Source: Sulfurimonas sp. (GTDB lineage: Bacteria; Campylobacterota; Campylobacteria; Campylobacterales; Sulfurimonadaceae). Taken from it: a stretch of DNA of 64,000 nt. Where the stretch lies: positions 124,001-188,000 of the forward strand of contig JAUZSC010000008.1 of assembly GCA_030949825.1 (NCBI GenBank), given 5' to 3'. The notes beneath the pieces are model-generated. The model made no database searches and was not told the origin of the DNA. It saw nothing but the letters and a program-made list of their open reading frames with translations. Within the stretch, counting starts at the first letter, position 1. Every line of letters begins with the position of its first letter. A program made the translations under genes and the position numbers. This document shows, in pieces, positions 43,865 to 64,000 of the stretch.

Positions 43865-45551
43865 TTAAAGTTCAGTTTTGAGTATTGCACCACTTGATGC
43901 ATTTGTTACGAGTAATCTATATCGCTTAAGCCATTTTGAGTTTACTTCGTTTACATGAGGCTTCCAAGCAGCTTTTCTTTTAGCAAGAGTAGCCTCATCA
44001 ACATTAAGCTGCAAAAGGTGATTATCTGTGTCAAGTTCTATCTCGTCACCATCTTCTACAAGTGCAATTAAACCACCCTCAGCTGCTTCTGGAGAAATAT
44101 GTCCAATAGATGCACCACGAGTTGCGCCACTAAATCTACCATCTGTAATAAGAGCAACACTCTCACCAAGTCCCATTCCCATAATAAGTGAGGTAGGAGC
44201 AAGCATCTCTTGCATACCTGGTCCACCTTTTGGTCCCTCATAACGAATAACTACAACATCACCAGCTTTTACTTTGTGTGCCATGATTCCAGCTAAGGCT
44301 TCAGTTTGGGAGTTAAAACAAACAGCGCTACCTTTAAACTGTTTCATATTTCCAGTGATTCCAGCAGTCTTGACAACCGCACCCTCTAAGGCGAGATTTC
44401 CAAAAAAGAATCGAAAGACCACCAACTTGAGAATAAGCATTTTCATTTGTATGAATTATATTTTCATCTAAAATTTTAGCATCTTCGATGCGTTCTGCTA
44501 ATGTTTCACCCGTAATCATTAAAGAATCAAGATTTAAAAGACCACTACGACGAGAAACTTCTGCCATAACAGCATTTACTCCACCCGCTTTATCAACATC
44601 ATCCATATGTACAGTACTTAAAGATGGAGATATTTTAGCGATATGTGCTACTTTATCTGCGATTTTATTAATGTTTTCTATTTTGTATTCGATATCTGAT
44701 TCTCTTGCAATTGCTAGAAGATGTAAAACAGTGTTTGAACTTCCACCCATTGCCATATCTACTACAAATGCATTGTGAATTGCTTTTTCATTTAAAATAT
44801 TTTTCATTTTAAATCGTGGGTCTTCAGATTTTGCCATTTCTACAACACGCCTTGCAGCTTGTTTGACAAGTGCTATTCTCTCAGGAGTCATCGCTAAAAT
44901 CGTTCCATTTCCTGGAAGTGCAATACCCATTGCTTCACAAAGCGTGTTCATAGAGTTTGCTGTAAACATTCCTGAACATGAACCACCTGATGGACAAGCT
45001 TCACACTCTATCTCATATAGCTCTTCGTCAGTCATCTTACCCTCAGCATGTTTTCCAACAGCTTCAAATGCAGTCGCTAAGTCAATAGGCGTACCATCTT
45101 TTTTATGCCCAGCAGCCATTGGACCACCTGAAACAAAGATAGTAGGAACATTAACGCGCAATGCACCCATAATCATCCCTGGAACGATTTTATCGCAGTT
45201 TGGAATACATATCATGGCATCTAACTGATGCGCGTTCATAACAGTCTCTATAGAGTCCGCGATAATCTCACGCGATGGTAAAGAATAAAGCATACCCTCG
45301 TGACCCATAGCTATTCCATCATCAACACCAATCGTGTTAAATACAAAAGGAACTCCACCAGCTTCACGGATAGCCTCTTTAACAATTTCTCCGTACTCAT
45401 GTAAAAAGAAATGCCCTGGAATAATGTCTATATAGCTATTTGCTATCCCAATAAATGGTTTATCGAAGTCTTCATCCTTTAAACCTGTTGCGCGTAATAG
45501 TGAACGGTGTGGAGCTTTGTCAAAACCTTTTTTTATAATATCACTTCTCAT
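43865..45551 (-). pseudogene. ilvD: Dihydroxy-acid dehydratase, split by one frameshift
   Basis: Two overlapping ORFs (44334-45551 and 43865-44446) make one IlvD of about 561 residues. The first ends after VGGLSILF with nonsense sequence. Dropping one T from the coding-strand T6 run (+ strand A at 44402-44407) restores [19 protein letters not shown] and the rest of the protein. Fe-S cysteines are visible in [12 protein letters not shown] and [16 protein letters not shown], and the C-terminal domain ends normally. The enzyme makes 2-oxo acids for valine, leucine and isoleucine. A one-base homopolymer error is the likely cause; true loss would mean branched-chain auxotrophy. Confidence 0.9.
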
Positions 45552-46017: not shown

Positions 46018-46108
46018 GGATCTTTGGCAGAGTTGGTCGAATGCACCGGCCTTGAAAGCCGGCGAGGAGTTAAATCCTCCCAGAGTTCGAATCTCTGAGG
46101 GTCCACCA
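46018..46108 (+). tRNA. tRNA-Ser (anticodon UGA), integration site of the island
   Basis: The 91-base class II tRNA has acceptor GGATCTT / AGGGTCC (with G-U pairs), anticodon stem CCGGC / GCCGG with loop CTTGAAA (TGA), long variable arm GAGGAGTTAAATCCTCC and an encoded CCA. Its 3' part from the anticodon loop onward recurs exactly at 60124-60184, showing that the tRNA was the target of a tyrosine recombinase and was left intact by the insertion. A -10-like TATAAT (45989) lies just upstream. Confidence 0.97.
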
Positions 46109-46111
46109 CTT
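46051..46111 (+). repeat. attL: 61-bp direct repeat in tRNA-Ser 3' end
   Basis: The 61 bases from CTTGAAAGCC to TCCACCACTT match 60124-60184 without mismatch and diverge on both sides. This is the left attachment site of the island. Confidence 0.93.
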
Positions 46112-46831
46112 ATCTTTACAATCCCCTAAAGTACTTACTTTCAAGACACTCTTAATAATACTAATAGCTTTGATATGCACCGGTTGTATGACCGTAGTAT
46201 GTGATAATTCTGTAAAATTAGTCGCAAAAAAGTCACACTTTTGACTTAAACTTTTCATAACAACCTTGATTAGAATTGCTTATTCAAATATCAAACTTTC
46301 AGATGTATCTGTTGACAATGCTTTAAATAATTGTATAACTCAGGTTTTATTTCCATAAACCTTCTCGCCAAATATAGTATCCGGCGAGGTAATCTCTACA
46401 AACTTAGCACTTAACTATGTTTCTAGCACTTAGCGTTTATTAGTCCGTCTAAAAGTGTGTCTTTTTTGAGACTTTTACTTGATAATCTGATGATGGAATA
46501 TGATTTTTTTGACTTTGGGTGTTTCGGGTGTGAAAAAATGAAAAAAATATTTTATAGAAAAAAGCTACGCTAGTTCTACTCTAAACTTTTTTATTTTTTT
46601 TTGTAAAACTCACACCCGAAACACCCAAAAATTGAGAGTGGTAATTCTACAGAAAAAAAAATATAGTCTATAGTTTTTTACTCTTAAGTGAAGCTCGAAG
46701 TTTTTTGAGCAGTTTCTGTATGAATTTTGAGAGATTTTGTGTGTTTTTTTTTATTGAAGTATCACGGAGTTTTAGTTGAGAAAAAAGTGAGCAGATATTT
46801 CTATCTATTCACTTTGAGGTTTTGATATAAA
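46112..46831. other. 720-bp non-coding left end of the island
   Basis: No credible gene is present. ORF-track entries here are antisense to the tRNAs. On the + strand TTGACA (46312-46317), a 16-base spacer and TATAAC (46334-46339) form a promoter-like pair. It is followed about 35 bases later by a CTCGCC / GGCGAG hairpin (46374-46388), so a short RNA is conceivable. A 20-bp inverted repeat (separate entry) and long A/T runs fill the rest. Recombinase and excision factor binding would be expected in such a stretch. Confidence 0.5.
46514..46629. repeat. 20-bp perfect inverted repeat around a 76-bp AT-rich centre
   Basis: TTTGGGTGTTTCGGGTGTGA at 46514-46533 is the exact inverse of TCACACCCGAAACACCCAAA at 46610-46629. 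Each arm contains the tandem-like unit GGGTGTTTCGGGTGTG. The GC-rich arms stand out in AT-rich DNA. The position near the attachment site and the recombinase remnant suggests a protein-binding pair, such as accessory sites for excision or an element origin. No function is proven. Confidence 0.75.
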
Positions 46832-55960: not shown

Positions 55961-56432
55961 ATGTTTAAAGATACAATAGAAATACTAAACTTTACACTTG
56001 AGCTTATAAAAAACAAGCAAGTTAAACAGAAACCTGCTAAAGAGATTTATGACCTTTACACACATTTAAATGAGATGAAGAAAAAAATGAACTTACTTAT
56101 CCACTTTATGCAAAGGGATTGGAGAGAATACAATGAAGATACGCAACATGGCTCTCGTATGAAAAAGTGGGTAGTGTTTGTAAATCAAGAATTGTATGAT
56201 TATGTTGATAGTAAGTATATGATGTTTTGTAAGGTACTCAAACTTGAAAGAACTCCATTTCCATATGAAGGAGTGCTAACTATGAACTTCTTTAACAAGC
56301 GTCTCAATTGTAAGCTAAATAAATATTTGGATTTACCTGTATTTGATGATGAAATGACATTAACACTCTATAGTTTTAACTTTGTAGCACTAGAGCAAAC
56401 AGACTATGCTTCTGTAGACTACGAAATCCCCC
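55961..56432 (+). pseudogene. Unknown protein gene, 5' part, cut by an IS3-like element
   Basis: The frame encodes about 157 real residues, starting MFKDTIEILNFTLELIKNKQ, with charged helices and no motif I recognise. From 56433 the sequence is IS end, so the listed C-terminal residues PLCQDSCPKLMI are IS-encoded. The gene starts 5 bases after the preceding one. Its probable 3' part resumes after the IS at 58065. Confidence 0.7.
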
Positions 56433-56488
56433 TGTGTCAGGATAGTTGTCCGAAACTTATGATATAAATCTTAATAAGGAACAAGACA

Positions 56489-57124
56489 ATGAGATATAGT
56501 AAAGCATACAAAGAAAAAGCAGTAAAAAAAGTGTTGGAAATGAGAGACACCCAAACTATGGGAACAATAGCAAAAGGCTTAAATATCTCAAAAGCCACCC
56601 TGCACATATGGCTAAAAAATACTAAGGATACTCAAACAACAGATGGAGTGATAACACTTTCTGATAAGCTCCAAATCCTAAAAGAAAGCTACAGCATGAA
56701 CGATGAAGCACTCAGTGCTTACTGCAGAGAGAAAGGTCTATTTAAACATCAACTCCAAGAGTGGGAGAAGGACTTCCTTAAAGTCCATAAACCTGAAGAC
56801 TCTACCGCTAAGAAAGCCCTAGAGGAGGAGAGAAGTAAGAGTAAAGCCTTAGCCAAGGAGTTGCGACGAAAGGAAAAGGCTCTAGCAGAGACAGCAACAC
56901 TCTTAGTATTGCAAAAAGTTTCAAGCACTGTTGGAGGGAGAGGAAGTATGATACCTCTAGCAGTGCGAAAAGATATCTTAATCCTTGTTACACAAGCACA
57001 TACAGATGGAGCACCTTTTTATAAAATAGCCCCTATCGTAGGATGTTGCACGAGAACACTCAAAAGATGGCAAGCTAATGAGCAGGATAAGCAGAACCCA
57101 GCGAATAAACTTCGAACCAACTAA
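56489..57124 (+). CDS. IS3-family ORFA, extended by a homopolymer variant
   Basis: The 211-residue ORF begins with an HTH (RYSKAYKEKAVKKVLEMRDT to SKATLHIWLKNT) and a charged leucine-zipper-like helix to about residue 150 (TLLVLQK). In this copy an A5 run (56911-56915 region) puts ORFA in frame with a stretch that normally starts at ATG 56948 (MIPLAVRKDILILVTQ) and that resembles the N-terminus of ORFB. The product is therefore an ORFA-ORFB hybrid that ends LRTN. Copy 2 has A6 and a different C-terminus. Confidence 0.75.
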   Translation: MRYSKAYKEKAVKKVLEMRDTQTMGTIAKGLNISKATLHIWLKNTKDTQTTDGVITLSDKLQILKESYSMNDEALSAYCREKGLFKHQLQEWEKDFLKVHKPEDSTAKKALEEERSKSKALAKELRRKEKALAETATLLVLQKVSSTVGGRGSMIPLAVRKDILILVTQAHTDGAPFYKIAPIVGCCTRTLKRWQANEQDKQNPANKLRTN

Positions 57125-58016
57125 CAAACTCTCTCAAGAGGAGAGAGAGCAGCTGATAAGCGTTGCTAACAATGAGAGCTATAAAAACCTATCCTCGCAT
57201 CAAATAGTGCCTAAGCTTGCAGACAAAGGAATTTACCTTGCATCTGAATCAACATTTTACAGAGTACTCAAAGAGCATAAGCAACTGACCCATAGACATA
57301 AACAAAAAGAAGGGAGTAGACATAAGCCAACTCCTTTGGTAGCCTCAGAGCCTAATCAAATATACAGTTGGGATATTACTTATCTACCAACAACAGTGCA
57401 AGGTGTATTTTATTACCTTTACCTCTTTATGGATATATATAGTCGCAAGATAGTCGGATGGCAAATCTATACCAAACAGAGCAGCGAGTTGGCTTCTGAA
57501 GTTATTAAAGATATAGCTATTAATGAAAACATCAAAGTAGATACAGTAACACTGCACTCAGACAATGGCTCCCCTATGAAAGGAGCTACATTTTTAACAA
57601 CACTTCAAAAGCTAGGCATTATGCCCACCTTTAGTAGACCTAGCGTGAGTAACGATAATCCTTACTCAGAGTCCATGTTTAAAACACTCAAATATACACC
57701 CTCCTATCCTAGTAAGCCATTTGATAGTGTAGTTGAGGCAAGAATATGGTGTGAAACATTTGTGACTTGGTATAACCATCAACACTGTCATAGTAGTATT
57801 GGGTTTGTCACACCAGTTCAAAGACACTTGCTTCAAGATAAGGAGATTTTAGAGAAAAGACATCGAGTATATGAGAAGGCTAAAGCAGCCAACCCTCGTA
57901 GATGGAGTGGTAGTACTCGTAACTGGTATTTCACAAAAGAAGTACATTTAAACCCCAATAAAGCAAAGGTAAACAATATAGCTGATAAAGTTTCAGCTGA
58001 AAGACATTCGGGTTAG
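57078..58016 (+). CDS. IS3-family ORFB, rve integrase domain
   Basis: The 312-residue product has the DDE core: Asp in YSWDITYLP near residue 102, Asp in LHSDNGSPM near 161, and Glu in NPYSESMFKTLKY near 197, about 35 residues after the second Asp. The true frame of the N-terminus begins in the previous ORF; the change of frame lies around AACCCAGCG (57095-57110), in both copies. Dropping one C joins the frames. Either the element uses frameshifting there or its ancestor was already damaged. Confidence 0.82.
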   Translation: MSRISRTQRINFEPTNKLSQEEREQLISVANNESYKNLSSHQIVPKLADKGIYLASESTFYRVLKEHKQLTHRHKQKEGSRHKPTPLVASEPNQIYSWDITYLPTTVQGVFYYLYLFMDIYSRKIVGWQIYTKQSSELASEVIKDIAINENIKVDTVTLHSDNGSPMKGATFLTTLQKLGIMPTFSRPSVSNDNPYSESMFKTLKYTPSYPSKPFDSVVEARIWCETFVTWYNHQHCHSSIGFVTPVQRHLLQDKEILEKRHRVYEKAKAANPRRWSGSTRNWYFTKEVHLNPNKAKVNNIADKVSAERHSG

Positions 58017-58064
58017 ACAAAGGTGGTACTTTCTAGGTACTTAATTTGGACAACTAGACTGACA

Positions 58065-58298
58065 TCTACCGAAATGCAAAGAGAAAGTGTTTTCACAAAG
58101 AGTACGATAGTTCTTTGTGATGATGGTGTAAGAAAAAAATTCATAGATGCTATGCAAAGTGACTTAGATAAAATGGAAAACTTCATTATAAACTTAGAAA
58201 ACATACTACTTCAAGAATATACACTTAAAGATATACTGATTCAAGAAGATAAGTATAAGATATCTGAGGGCTTTGCGTTTAGGAGTAATAAATTATGA
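58065..58298 (+). pseudogene. Probable 3' part of the gene cut by IS3-like copy 1
   Basis: After the IS right end the frame reads TSTEMQRESVFTKSTIVLCD and continues to the stop at 58298 (about 77 residues). The ORF track's start at 58023 is within the IS. The frame can follow the 5' part at 55961-56432 if the IS is removed, so this is probably its C-terminus. It overlaps the next ORF by 4 bp. No family is recognised. Confidence 0.5.
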
Positions 58299-59335: not shown

Positions 59336-59455
59336 ACTCATATCTATAAGTATGCCTTAAACTCCATTCTTGATATTGTGTTCGGGCGTGGGAGGTAGCT
59401 TTTATATTTCTTTTTTTGTTATAATATACAATAATAAATGAACGAGGAATATTCT

Positions 59456-59656
59456 ATGAGCAATGCACAGATACTACAAGAAGCCTTACAACTAAATCCT
59501 CAAGAACGATATATAGTCGTTGAAAGCTTACTTAAAAGCTTGGATAAACCTGATGATAGTGTTGATGATATTTGGGCTAATGAAGCAGAGAAAAGACTTC
59601 AAAACTATAGAGACAATAAAGTACAAACTATTCGATTTGAAGAAGTTTTCAATTAA
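59456..59656 (+). CDS. Antitoxin of a type II addiction module (PF09720-like)
   Basis: The ORF begins at 59438, but ATG 59456 has GAGGA seven bases upstream, giving 66 residues from MSNAQILQEALQLNPQERY. It has the unstable-antitoxin pattern LNPQERYIVVESLLKSLD followed by the WANEAEKRLQNY helix, typical of the putative addiction-module component family. It directly precedes a ParE/RelE-type toxin and shares a base with its start. Confidence 0.85.
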   Translation: MSNAQILQEALQLNPQERYIVVESLLKSLDKPDDSVDDIWANEAEKRLQNYRDNKVQTIRFEEVFN

Positions 59657-59952
59657 TGAAAATTGAGTTTTTACCTGAAGCAAAATCTGAACTAGATGAA
59701 GCAGTTGAATACTATGAACTTCAAGCAAAAGGTTTAGGAGCAACATTTAAAAGTTTCGCTAAAGAAACTATAAAAAGGGTTGCTACATTTCCAACAGCAT
59801 GGACAACTATTAAACCAAATATACGAAGATGTATAATGCATAAATTTCCATATAATGTTCTCTATTCTATAGAAGAAGACTGTATATTAATAATAGCAAT
59901 AGCACACCATCATAGATATCCAAATTATTGGGATAAAAGAGTCAAAAGCTAA
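59656..59952 (+). CDS. RelE/ParE-family toxin
   Basis: The 98-residue protein has the ParE/RelE fold pattern: MKIEFLPEAKSELDEAVEYY at the N-terminus, RRCIMHKFPYNVLYSIEED in the middle and IAIAHHHRYPNYW at the end. ParE-type proteins poison DNA gyrase and RelE-type cut mRNA; the sequence cannot decide which. It overlaps the antitoxin stop (TAATG). The pair sits 172 bp before the right attachment site and probably stabilises the island. Confidence 0.88.
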   Translation: MKIEFLPEAKSELDEAVEYYELQAKGLGATFKSFAKETIKRVATFPTAWTTIKPNIRRCIMHKFPYNVLYSIEEDCILIIAIAHHHRYPNYWDKRVKS

Positions 59953-59982: not shown

Positions 59983-60171
59983 ATGCCTCAAGCATTCCCT
60001 ATTGAATTGCCCATAAACACCATGAGAAAGGACAGAAATAAGACTTATTTTAGACTGATTGATAATCCTAAAACTACGATGTCAGTGGGTTCTACTAGCA
60101 GTAATGGTGCTATTCTAGACTATCTTGAAAGCCGGCGAGGAGTTAAATCCTCCCAGAGTTCGAATCTCTGA
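59983..60171 (+). CDS. Short ORF reading into the attachment site, doubtful
   Basis: A 62-codon frame (PQAFPIELPINTMRKDRNKT...) reads into the tRNA-derived repeat, so its last 16 codons (ESRRGVKSSQSSNL) are att sequence. It lacks a good ribosome site. It may be spurious, or a gene whose end was replaced at integration. Confidence 0.25.
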   Translation: MPQAFPIELPINTMRKDRNKTYFRLIDNPKTTMSVGSTSSNGAILDYLESRRGVKSSQSSNL

Positions 60172-60184
60172 GGGTCCACCACTT
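60124..60184 (+). repeat. attR: 61-bp direct repeat of the tRNA-Ser 3' end
   Basis: Exact copy of 46051-46111, from CTTGAAAGCC to TCCACCACTT. The upstream bases differ (GACTAT instead of CACCGGC), so no tRNA can be formed here. It ends the island and begins the second recombinase module. Confidence 0.93.
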
Positions 60185-60279
60185 CTTAATAATCACAAAC
60201 CTTTGAAACCCTTACAACCCCTTGCTTAACAGCTATTTTACTGTTTTGAACGATTTAGAGGGAGACACAAAAGGCGATA
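60168..60279 (+). repeat. Left arm of a perfect 112-bp inverted repeat
   Basis: Sequence from CTGAGGGTCCACCACTTCTT to AAAAGGCGATA is the exact reverse complement of 61787-61898. Its first 17 bases are the last bases of the attR. Enclosed are the recombinase and the small VbhA-like gene. Confidence 0.93.
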
Positions 60280-60297
60280 CAAAACACACCGAGTTTA

Positions 60298-61548
60298 ATG
60301 CTTGGATTACCTATGAGTATCTCTTTATCCACCAACAAAAACGAATATTATTGCTTACGATTTCGTGTCCATAAGAGATTAATCCCCTACTTCAAGAAAC
60401 CACTCATCCGAAAATCACTTTACACCAAAAATAAGAGACAAGCTCAACTAAAAGCAGATAAGATTTATGATCCCTATCAACAGATATTGAATACTGTATC
60501 AATCATAACTACTGAACAAACTCAACAGCTTGTAGATAAATTCATTGAAGAACAATTAGAACAAAATACGATGAAAACATTTACGATAGACTCAACCAAA
60601 TACAAAGCTCTATCATCCATTACAATTGAAGATGCTTATAACAAATTCTGTGTCTGGTATAAACAACAAAGGATAGGCGAAAAGCAATACTCACTTACTA
60701 CCAAGAAAATACACAATATTATTATCCCATTTATCGGTATGAACACTAATGTAGATGATATTACTCTTGAAACGATTGAAGAGTTTAGGGAGTTTCTGCT
60801 TACTATGCCTAATGTCAACAAATTCATATACAAACATTTATCTTTCACTCAACTCATACATTTATCTGATACACCACAAGAAGACTTAATTACCGTTAGC
60901 ACTCAAATTAAATATCTGAAAATAGTAAAACAGTTTTTCCTCTACATGATTAAAGCTAATCTAATCAAATATAATCCATGCAGCTTACTCACTATGCCAA
61001 ATAATACCATTCCAAACAGAGAACCATTTGATGATGCAGATATGCAGAAGTTATTCAAGATATTTGATGACTTAGATGACAGAAAATATATTTACTATAT
61101 CCTTGCATATACGGGCATGAGACCTTCTGAACTATGGAAGTGTAAAATCTCAGTTAGCGATACAAATATAGTGTATTTTGATTTGACCGAAAAAACGATA
61201 CAATTAAAAACACTCTCAAGTAATCGGGCTATACCACTTCACAACAAATTATTAGAGATGGGTATAGACAAAAAACTATCTTCATTACAATCTTGTTTTA
61301 CTCAAACTGCTATCAGTATCTACTTCAACAAAGTCATTAAAAATATGATTACCGATGAAAAAAATAAGATTATGTACTCTTTTAGACATACGGTCGCAAC
61401 TGAACTAAAAAGAGCTGAAGTTCATATGGATAAAGTTTCTGAACTGTTAGGTCATAGTTATACCAATAGTTCAATGACAAAAGAAGTTTATGCCCAAGGA
61501 TATACCCTTGAACAGCTTCAAGTAGCAATCAATCATCTAAACTTTTAA
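60298..61548 (+). CDS. Intact tyrosine recombinase (integrase)
   Basis: This 416-residue protein has an N-terminal segment with YYCLRFRVHKRLIPYFKKPL near residue 17, a core-binding domain and a catalytic domain. Catalytic residues appear as Arg in YTGMRPSELWK near 281, Lys region in KTLSSNRAIPLH near 305, HxxR in YSFRHTVATEL near 362, His in LLGHSYTNSS near 382, and Tyr in EVYAQGY near 395. It lies directly beyond attR pointing away from it, inside the 112-bp inverted repeat. An internal ATG at 60313 (MSISLSTN) is an alternative start. It is not the same protein as the broken recombinase at 46832, so the site was used by a second element. Confidence 0.9.
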   Translation: MLGLPMSISLSTNKNEYYCLRFRVHKRLIPYFKKPLIRKSLYTKNKRQAQLKADKIYDPYQQILNTVSIITTEQTQQLVDKFIEEQLEQNTMKTFTIDSTKYKALSSITIEDAYNKFCVWYKQQRIGEKQYSLTTKKIHNIIIPFIGMNTNVDDITLETIEEFREFLLTMPNVNKFIYKHLSFTQLIHLSDTPQEDLITVSTQIKYLKIVKQFFLYMIKANLIKYNPCSLLTMPNNTIPNREPFDDADMQKLFKIFDDLDDRKYIYYILAYTGMRPSELWKCKISVSDTNIVYFDLTEKTIQLKTLSSNRAIPLHNKLLEMGIDKKLSSLQSCFTQTAISIYFNKVIKNMITDEKNKIMYSFRHTVATELKRAEVHMDKVSELLGHSYTNSSMTKEVYAQGYTLEQLQVAINHLNF

Positions 61549-61558
61549 CACCTATCAT

Positions 61559-61783
61559 TTAAGTCTTTGCATTGATGGCATAAATTACTTTATCTGTAAT
61601 AATTTTTACAGTTTCATCATCAGGTAATTGACCTTCTAATGCAGATGTTTTTAATATCTTTTTTACTATTTTGTCCGCTTGTTTTAGAATCTCTTTATCA
61701 GTAGTAGGGTTATACCCTTCTATTTGACTTGATATAGTTGCTGCCTTAACAGCTTCTTCATATGAAAATGGTGGTTTATTCAT
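61559..61783 (-). CDS. Small VbhA-like protein (Fic inhibitor-type motif)
   Basis: This 74-residue protein reads PPFSYEEAVKAATISSQIEG near its N-terminus. The SSQIEG stretch fits the (S/T)xxxE(G/N) inhibitory motif by which VbhA-type antitoxins block Fic-domain AMPylases. A helical remainder follows. No Fic toxin is found in the window, so it would be an orphan. It is convergent with the recombinase and inside the inverted repeat. The motif is short, so the assignment is moderate. Confidence 0.55.
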   Translation of the reverse strand: MNKPPFSYEEAVKAATISSQIEGYNPTTDKEILKQADKIVKKILKTSALEGQLPDDETVKIITDKVIYAINAKT

Positions 61784-61786
61784 GGT

Positions 61787-61898
61787 TATCGCCTTTTGTG
61801 TCTCCCTCTAAATCGTTCAAAACAGTAAAATAGCTGTTAAGCAAGGGGTTGTAAGGGTTTCAAAGGTTTGTGATTATTAAGAAGTGGTGGACCCTCAG
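61787..61898 (-). repeat. Right arm of the 112-bp inverted repeat
   Basis: Exact reverse complement of 60168-60279. It includes the tRNA-Ser end in inverse orientation (GTGGTGGACCCTCAG) and forms most of the first unit of the 151-bp tandem repeat. Confidence 0.93.
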
Positions 61899-62095
61899 CT
61901 TAAAATAAAATCATTACATACACACTTGTAAGCACCATTCTATCTTTTGTGTCTCCCTCTAAATCGTTCAAAACAGTAAAATAGCTGTTAAGCAAGGGGT
62001 TGTAAGGGTTTCAAAGGTTTGTGATTATTAAGAAGTGGTGGACCCTCAGCTTAAAATAAAATCATTACATACACACTTGTAAGCACCATTCTATC
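61793..62095. repeat. Two tandem copies of a 151-bp unit, plus a short third start
   Basis: The unit beginning CTTTTGTGTCTCCCTCTAAA recurs at 61944, 151 bases later, and both end in CACCATTCTATC. Each unit holds most of an inverted-repeat arm with the tRNA-Ser end, plus 46 bases of other sequence. A third partial start, CTTTTGTGTCTCCCT, is at 62129-62143. These may be successive attachment-site scars or arm-site clusters. Confidence 0.9.
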
Positions 62096-62568
62096 GGGAT
62101 TTGTCTGTCACAAACATAAATGTGTCCCCTTTTGTGTCTCCCTTTTTATACATTAACAATTTCAATTTCAAAGAACGATATATGTATCATATACATAGCT
62201 CTCTACACAAATATTTTACGCTTTAAAAGCCTATTTTGAGCACTTTAAGGAAATTATTAAGTTAAATATTGATATTTTCAATATCAATGTATTGTTTTTT
62301 TAAGCCTTTTTCTTATAAATGGATGGAAATATAAACTTTATGGTAAAAACAACTGTAGTATTTGAGTTCAATTGACTTGATTAGCCGTTATTTCCTAACT
62401 TATATTTTTACAACCCCATAAACAAGGGGTTCTGTCCTTTTGAGTTGTGTAGAGAGGTATGATCATATATGGTATACATTTTACATTCTTTTGCTCTATT
62501 ATAGGAGCTTATCTGAAAGAATGTCAAAGGTTCTAAACCCCTTTATTCTTATGGATAAAGAAGAGGAT
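62096..62568. other. 473-bp non-coding stretch between repeats and resolvase
   Basis: No credible gene. It holds TATGTAT-CAT-ATACATA (62181-62197) and ATTGATATT-TTC-AATATCAAT (62268-62288), two short perfect palindromes, and TATATGGTATACAT near 62466. Similar TATATGGTGTACCATA occurs upstream of the resolvase (63161). Such pairs could be binding sites for the resolvase. Confidence 0.45.
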
Positions 62569-63141
62569 TTATGCTGCTTCTTGAAGCTTCTTATATGAAG
62601 ATATATATCTCAATAATGTGCTTCTTCCAATCTCAAATTCATCAGCAATCTGTTGTGCTGTCATCCCTTGTTTTTGAAGCTCAATTGCTTGAATTGTTTT
62701 CTCTTCATTGAATTTAGCTTGGGGACCGAATTTTACACCACACTTCTTTGCAGATAAAATTCCATCAGCTTGTCTCTCAGCCCTCAAATCGGTTTCGAAT
62801 GCGGATACAATTGATAGTAGACCAATCATGAGTCTTCCTGCTGAACTTGATGTATCTAAATCTTGTTCAGTAGCTTGGAACGAAACACCTTTTTCATTTA
62901 ATGTATCAATAATCTGATGCAAATCTTTCACAGAACGAGAACATCTGTCTAATCTCGTTACATAGAATTCATCTCTATCTCTTACGAAGTCTAATGCTTC
63001 TTGAAGTTCAATTCTATTGAATTGTTGCTTACCGCTCATCTTCTCAGTAAATATCTTCTCACATCCTATTAATTCTAATGCTTCAATCTGACTATTTAGG
63101 TTCTGACCTGAACTGGAGACACGTGCATATCCTACTCTCAT
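62569..63141 (-). CDS. Serine recombinase (resolvase/invertase family)
   Basis: This 190-residue protein has the catalytic N-terminal domain (RVGYARVSSSGQNLNSQIEA with the active Ser at about residue 9-10, FYVTRLDRCSRS near 60-70) and the LSIVSAFETDLRAERQADGI helix. A C-terminal HTH (MTAQQIADEFEIGRSTLLRY) completes it. It is the small resolvase type used for co-integrate resolution or DNA inversion. It lies between the recombinase module and IS3-like copy 2. A palindromic TATGGT-GT-ACCATA (63163-63176) just before the start could be a binding site. Confidence 0.92.
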   Translation of the reverse strand: MRVGYARVSSSGQNLNSQIEALELIGCEKIFTEKMSGKQQFNRIELQEALDFVRDRDEFYVTRLDRCSRSVKDLHQIIDTLNEKGVSFQATEQDLDTSSSAGRLMIGLLSIVSAFETDLRAERQADGILSAKKCGVKFGPQAKFNEEKTIQAIELQKQGMTAQQIADEFEIGRSTLLRYISSYKKLQEAA

Positions 63142-63238
63142 GATAATTCCTTAATTCCTTTATATGGTGTACCATAACCCCCTGTGTCAGGATAGTTGTC
63201 CGAAACTTATGATATAAATCTTAATAAGGAACAAGACA

Positions 63239-63775
63239 ATGAGATATAGTAAAGCATACAAAGAAAAAGCAGTAAAAAAAGTGTTGGAAATGAGAGACAC
63301 CCAAACTATGGGAACAATAGCAAAAGGCTTAAATATCTCAAAAGCCACCCTGCACATATGGCTAAAAAATACTAAGGATACTCAAACAACAGATGGAGTG
63401 ATAACACTTTCTGATAAGCTCCAAATCCTAAAAGAAAGCTACAGCATGAACGATGAAGCACTCAGTGCTTACTGCAGAGAGAAAGGTCTATTTAAACATC
63501 AACTCCAAGAGTGGGAGAAGGACTTCCTTAAAGCCCATAAACCTGAAGACTCTACCGCTAAGAAAGCCCTAGAGGAGGAGAGAAGTAAGAGTAAAGCCTT
63601 AGCCAAGGAGTTGCGACGAAAGGAAAAGGCTCTAGCAGAGACAGCAACACTCTTAGTATTGCAAAAAAGTTTCAAGCACTGTTGGAGGGAGAGGAAGTAT
63701 GATACCTCTAGCAGTGCGAAAAGATATCTTAATCCTTGTTACACAAGCACATACAGATGGAGCACCTTTTTATAA
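63239..63775 (+). CDS. IS3-family ORFA, copy 2
   Basis: The product is identical to copy 1 for the first 170 residues except one Val-to-Ala change. The A6 run then shifts it into a different frame (QKSFKHCWRERKYDT), ending at residue 178. With one more A the frame would read KKFQALLEGEEV and stop over the ATG of the next frame. That version (A7) is probably the ancestral ORFA. ORFB (from 63829, MSRISRTQRINFEP) continues beyond the window. Confidence 0.75.
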   Translation: MRYSKAYKEKAVKKVLEMRDTQTMGTIAKGLNISKATLHIWLKNTKDTQTTDGVITLSDKLQILKESYSMNDEALSAYCREKGLFKHQLQEWEKDFLKAHKPEDSTAKKALEEERSKSKALAKELRRKEKALAETATLLVLQKSFKHCWRERKYDTSSSAKRYLNPCYTSTYRWSTFL

Positions 63776-63828
63776 AATAGCCCCTATCGTAGGATGTTGC
63801 ACGAGAACACTCAAAAGATGGCAAGCTA

Positions 63829-64000
63829 ATGAGCAGGATAAGCAGAACCCAGCGAATAAACTTCGAACCAACTAACAAACTCTCTCAAGAGGAGAGAGAG
63901 CAGCTGATAAGCGTTGCTAACAATGAGAGCTATAAAAACCTATCCTCGCATCAAATAGTGCCTAAGCTTGCAGACAAAGGAATTTACCTTGCATCTGAAT
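63829..64000 (+). CDS. IS3-family ORFB, copy 2, 5' part only
   Basis: The frame starting at ATG 63829 (MSRISRTQRINFEPTNKL) is identical to the N-terminus of ORFB in copy 1 and runs off the window within the LADKGIYLASES segment. The integrase core would follow outside. Confidence 0.8.
   Translation, partial: MSRISRTQRINFEPTNKLSQEEREQLISVANNESYKNLSSHQIVPKLADKGIYLASE

Follow-up and report, generated by a model that had tools for sequence, protein, structure and literature searches.

Toward the right end of the 64,000-nucleotide stretch of Sulfurimonas sp. DNA analysed here (the window, part of contig C8 of genome G000) lies what is best read as a small tRNA-Ser(TGA) integrative element, seen at its left end, in which the resolvase-P-core-P' segment appears to have been duplicated in inverted orientation beyond the integrase gene (int), a reading to which roughly two chances in three are assigned. 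The labels P, P', attL and attP were given by sequence comparison with relatives. By this comparison, the left copy is a putative attL, the right copy is a whole attP, inverted and followed by the resolvase, and a direct copy on contig C7 of the same genome is attR. The sequence-only reading had presented the layout as one of no known kind; the layout itself stands, but the idea of a novel repeat does not, as the 112 bp common to both sides are, by the same comparison, the ordinary core and P' arm of a tRNA-Ser element's attachment site. Calling the structure one of an unknown kind goes too far: elements of this kind are known, and what is unusual is the arrangement.

Positions 60168-60279 and 61787-61898 form an inverted repeat of 112 nt with 100% complementarity and 1507 nt in between, which is the longest exact inverted repeat of the 64-kb window, and both arms hold the last nucleotides of tRNA-Ser(TGA). 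A chance origin is ruled out, since in first-order Markov resamplings of the window (n=20) the longest inverted repeat measured 15-18 nt, that is, 18 bp at most. Perfect 112-bp inverted arms, with tRNA-Ser sequence in each, had been described from the letters alone, and the comparison of repeats in the window confirms them. That description had taken perfect identity as a sign of recent origin or gene conversion and had named diverged arms among the things that would count against its reading of the layout; the arms are 100% identical, and recent origin or homogenisation is also the explanation adopted here. It overlooked a second right-hand arm, the complete inverted attP with its P arm, the serine resolvase of the same element, and the asymmetry between the attL on the left and the complete inverted attP on the right.

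The target gene of the element family, tRNA-Ser(TGA), was located by ARAGORN at 46018-46108 on the plus strand, and the relatives G032 and G297 carry the same tRNA-Gly/Leu/Cys/Ser cluster with int directly downstream. Integration into the 3' end of a tRNA gene, with a direct repeat of that end, is recorded in the window by a 61-bp repeat of 100% identity between 46051-46111 and 60124-60184, which comprises the 3' part of tRNA-Ser and the three following bases. The second copy (60124-60184, plus strand) marks both the end of a preceding 14-kb island and the left edge (attL) of the element, and int adjoins it. The left arm (60168-60279, plus strand), homologous to attL of G032 and G297, consists of the core (60168-60184) and the P' arm, with arm-type repeats GGGAGACACAAAA-GGCGATACAAAA-CACACC at 60260-60290; such repeats flank the core on both sides, as P and P' aligned with those of G032, G297 and a further genome, G036.

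The preceding 14-kb island ends with a gene pair for an antitoxin and a ParE-like toxin (59438-59952). Inverted iteron-like repeats lie by the resolvase or the island start in the window (46514-46629) and in loci L069 (7744-7850), L037 (5910-6023) and L035 (5135-5281), and are candidate replication origins of these small elements. A dihydroxy-acid dehydratase-like gene (43865-45551) is seemingly frameshifted near 44400 and forms one longer frame in relatives, reflecting either a sequencing indel or a real pseudogene.

Between the arms, an intact tyrosine recombinase/integrase of 416 amino acids is encoded (60298-61548, plus strand; Pfam Phage_integrase, 3.1e-9), the type of enzyme carried by tRNA-targeting integrative elements. 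Alignment assigns it the conserved catalytic residues R275, K304, Y360, R363, H386 and Y398, with Y360 occupying a position where His is usual. An integron was rejected, the protein scoring 16.5 bits on TIGR02249 (IntI) against a cut-off of 265, and instead of the three adjacent tyrosine recombinases of a RIT element, one lies between the arms. The earlier placement of an intact recombinase together with a VbhA-like gene in this interval holds, with the qualification that the VbhA match of the 74-aa ORF (61559-61783, minus strand), which starts 4 nt from the right arm, is weak (E = 0.01, below the Pfam cut-off). Residues 1-41 of this ORF match small ORFs of the Fic-antitoxin type, while residues 29-71 match part of other open frames of roughly 130-160 aa, so that it seems to join the N-terminus of a Fic antitoxin to the C-terminus of another protein as a hybrid, and is probably passenger DNA.

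On the right side, alignment with attR of G032, G297 and contig C7 of G000 delimits a complete inverted attP (61787-62142, minus strand), ordered as P' arm, core, 45-bp spacer, second core-P' and P arm, with the core-P' part doubled. The first right arm (61787-61898, minus strand; core 61882-61898) is 100% identical to the left arm. A third arm, perfect over 106 bp (61944-62049, core 62033-62049), exists because a 151-bp unit is perfectly duplicated in tandem (copy 1, 61793-61943; copy 2, which holds this arm, 61944-62094; both on the minus strand). The P arm (62121-62142, minus strand), defined from an alignment of five attR/attP sites, contains two arm-type sites, GGGAGACACAAAAGGGGACACA when read on the minus strand. 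Between it and the serine resolvase of the element (62569-63141, minus strand), a second copy of which is part of the direct attR end on C7, a MITE-like insert occupies 62194-62457, with inverted ends CTCTCTACACAA and TTGTGTAGAGAG; the insert is missing from the C7 copy, and this MITE-like element, of about 269 bp, has 8 near-identical copies in the genome, the window copy included.

Read on the minus strand from 63141 to 61787, this region presents the resolvase (63141-62569), the P arm (62142-62121), about 80 bp, the core and the P' arm. Since this order matches the resolvase-P-core order of the relatives, the right side is interpreted as a whole inverted attP and the left arm as attL. The two sites may be non-equivalent, because attL has three P' arm sites and the right attP only one complete site, without the second and third. 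No attP was found beside other resolvase relatives. Perfect inverted ends around a recombinase might also suggest a transposon-like unit, in which the recombinase and its cargo would move between terminal inverted repeats as a 1.7-kb element, but this is very improbable: conserved element sequence (P arm and resolvase), and not target DNA, continues beyond the right end, the core is the tRNA target, the relatives integrate at tRNA genes with direct repeats, and the genome holds a single copy of the recombinase.

The second copy of the duplicated segment is found on contig C7 of the same genome (C7:28824), where resolvase, P arm and core follow one another in direct orientation and are succeeded by a different flank, as in a direct attR. 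The MITE-like insert aside, the resolvase-P-core segments of C7 and the window differ by 1 SNP (C/T) in 871 bp. Only the window copy has the insert, the 151-bp tandem duplication and an insertion sequence immediately past the resolvase, which indicates that the inverted copy occupies a locus of its own and is no simple misassembly. Together with the C/T difference and the presence of an ORF at the junction, these features speak against the explanation that the layout is an artefact, arising by misassembly in G000 and as an inverted phi29 amplification chimera in the second genome described below; for G000, what favours that explanation is its state as a 43-contig draft with 5.56% contamination. 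A simple chimera of one integrated locus, moreover, should run into the tRNA side and not into P and the resolvase, and an artefactual origin is judged quite unlikely.

The attL lies on C8 and the attR on C7, each with insertion-sequence tracts beyond it; no contig shows the element from end to end, and the two ends are presumed partners. The synteny tying C7 to the downstream side of tRNA-Ser is a weak match. One insertion sequence is present in many near-identical copies, some of them nested or truncated (56428-58073, 63178-64000, L048 and L069), and copies stand next to the element's broken ends on C7 as well as on C8.

The ordinary form of the element is displayed by G032 and G297, relatives in complete single-contig genomes. 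The left part of G032 comprises tRNA-Ser, the core, a P' arm with GAGACACAAA-GCGAAACACAAAA and an integrase interrupted by an insertion sequence, while its right part comprises a serine resolvase and the P arm GAGACACAAACCGAGACACA, with the directly oriented core CTGAGGGTCCACCACTT following after about 80 bp; two genes between integrase and resolvase were judged by eye, with no Pfam support, to be replication-like. The element of G297 is of the same kind, with cores 4.4 kb apart and without a resolvase. A long inverted repeat around int was found in none of the 15 relatives scanned whole (G006, G010, G028, G032, G056, G138, G192, G247, G280, G297, G298, G349, G382, G575 and G582), and the inverted layout is rejected as a general family trait; a 27-bp inverted pair in G032 represents the ends of its inserted insertion sequence. 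Protein-only scans of genome and viral collections found no relative, an alignment-based scan returned loci already known and distant ones, nothing further, and plasmid and phage collections yielded distant integrases only. A search of the open-access literature found no description of an integrase gene with attL on one side and an inverted attP on the other.

The layout recurs in one other genome, on contig C62 of G036 (L035; Sulfurimonas sp. SAG-AH-194-I05), where core, P' and int are followed immediately by inverted P'-core-P and a resolvase. The arms in this genome match perfectly along 106 bp, and between the window and G036 the arms are identical at 93 of 105 positions (89%); the integrases share 72% protein identity, with 45 of 83 fourfold sites identical. 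In both known examples, one in each of the two genomes, int points away from the tRNA side. Had the layout been inherited, about 12 differences between the arms within a genome would be predicted, going by the 12 of 105 between genomes, and none is present; the arms would thus have been homogenised if the layout was inherited, and otherwise the layout would have arisen twice recently.

This second case also bears on a possible artefact. The breakpoint at the outer edge of P' agrees within about 6 bp between the assemblies of G000 and G036, which are unrelated, and this speaks against a chimera; in its favour, G036 is a single-cell genome (SAG), and phi29 amplification yields inverted chimeras with short overlaps (PMC4595205). 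G036 holds one resolvase-P-core copy only, and a direct attR was looked for in this genome and not found. The case counts as support with the caveat that it is possibly an amplification chimera. On contigs C1, C62 and C93 of the same genome (L056, L035 and L065), several islands with distinct arm repeats are seemingly stacked at the same tRNA-Ser.

According to the preferred reading, the second resolvase-attP segment would most simply have arisen by an illegitimate inverted-duplication event while the element was circular or in tandem. Int/vbhA and P' meet at the outer edge of the P' arm and not at the core, which argues that the normal reaction of the integrase did not make this junction. The arms may be kept identical via recombination between them, or they may be very young. 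Should the window attL be the partner of the attR on C7, excision would release a circle in which two complete attP sites of opposite orientation enclose int, with a resolvase on the outside of each. The inverted cores and arms are putative sites of the kind that borders an invertible DNA switch, and int could be turned round by the integrase at these cores or by homologous recombination between the arms; such an inversion of the int segment is plausible.

A more demanding proposal holds that the element is a functional flip system, whose circular form has int between two inverted attP sites and in which the integrase or homologous recombination does invert int, whether to serve as a switch or for amplification of the replicon, the part that FLP plays in the yeast 2-micron plasmid, and that the two-species architecture and the homogenised arms are products of this flipping activity. 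It draws on the shared layout of two elements whose integrases have diverged and whose arms are perfect within and different between genomes, on the intact integrase, and on the circle with two inverted resolvase-P-core-P' segments that attL and the C7 attR would give if they are partners. The replication-like genes of G032 and the iteron-like inverted repeats would fit a replicating circle, and inversion by a tyrosine integrase between inverted tRNA att sites has been published for pTN3, in vitro (PMC5495485). Against the proposal, int has the same orientation in both genomes and the alternative was seen in neither, the right attP is missing two of the three P' arm sites present in attL, the G036 copy is possibly a chimera, the G000 element is broken by insertion sequences, and no third example was found among the relatives examined. 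Such a functional system is possible but doubtful, and it is unlikely that the two cases represent a family of bacterial integrative replicons that combine two complete, inverted and homogenised attP sites around int, and flipping, with integration at tRNA-Ser.

The interest of the element hinges on the use of its inverted sites. Were the inverted pair to function, a tRNA island of ordinary appearance would have made an invertible switch or amplification device of its own attachment site, which would be unique among the members examined. If the pair is a by-product, it would show how inverted duplications arise in such elements, and how the arms of an attachment site can remain the same inside one genome and yet differ from species to species.

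Known systems resemble the element in different respects. The yeast 2-micron plasmid has a tyrosine recombinase, FLP, on a circle with two inverted FRT sites inside longer inverted repeats; it does not integrate at tRNA genes, and its flipping and the role of this flipping in copy number are known. The likeness would lie in a tyrosine recombinase on a circle with two inverted sites, the circle being presumed for the window element, which differs in its integration at a tRNA gene and in that flipping and a copy-number role are hypothetical. The pTN3 integrase of Thermococcus nautili is likewise a tRNA-targeting tyrosine integrase that inverts DNA between inverted tRNA-derived sites (PMC5495485), but it is archaeal, its natural sites lie far apart on the chromosome, its int is unbracketed, and its activity is demonstrated whereas that of the window element is putative. 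Tandem inversion duplications (Kugelberg et al. 2010), as summarised in PMC4689423, similarly involve an inverted extra copy of a segment that is later remodelled, while for the window element an origin of this sort is conjectural. Further counterparts are tRNA-integrating tyrosine-recombinase islands and satellites of the kind catalogued in Islander (PMC4383910), here represented by the tRNA-Ser relatives in G032 and G297, which share the tRNA-Ser target, the core, the P and P' repeats and the position of int by P', and in the case of G032 also the terminal resolvase; compared with these ordinary islands, the window element has a second resolvase-P-core-P' end, inverted and placed directly behind int, and cores that are inverted and not only direct.
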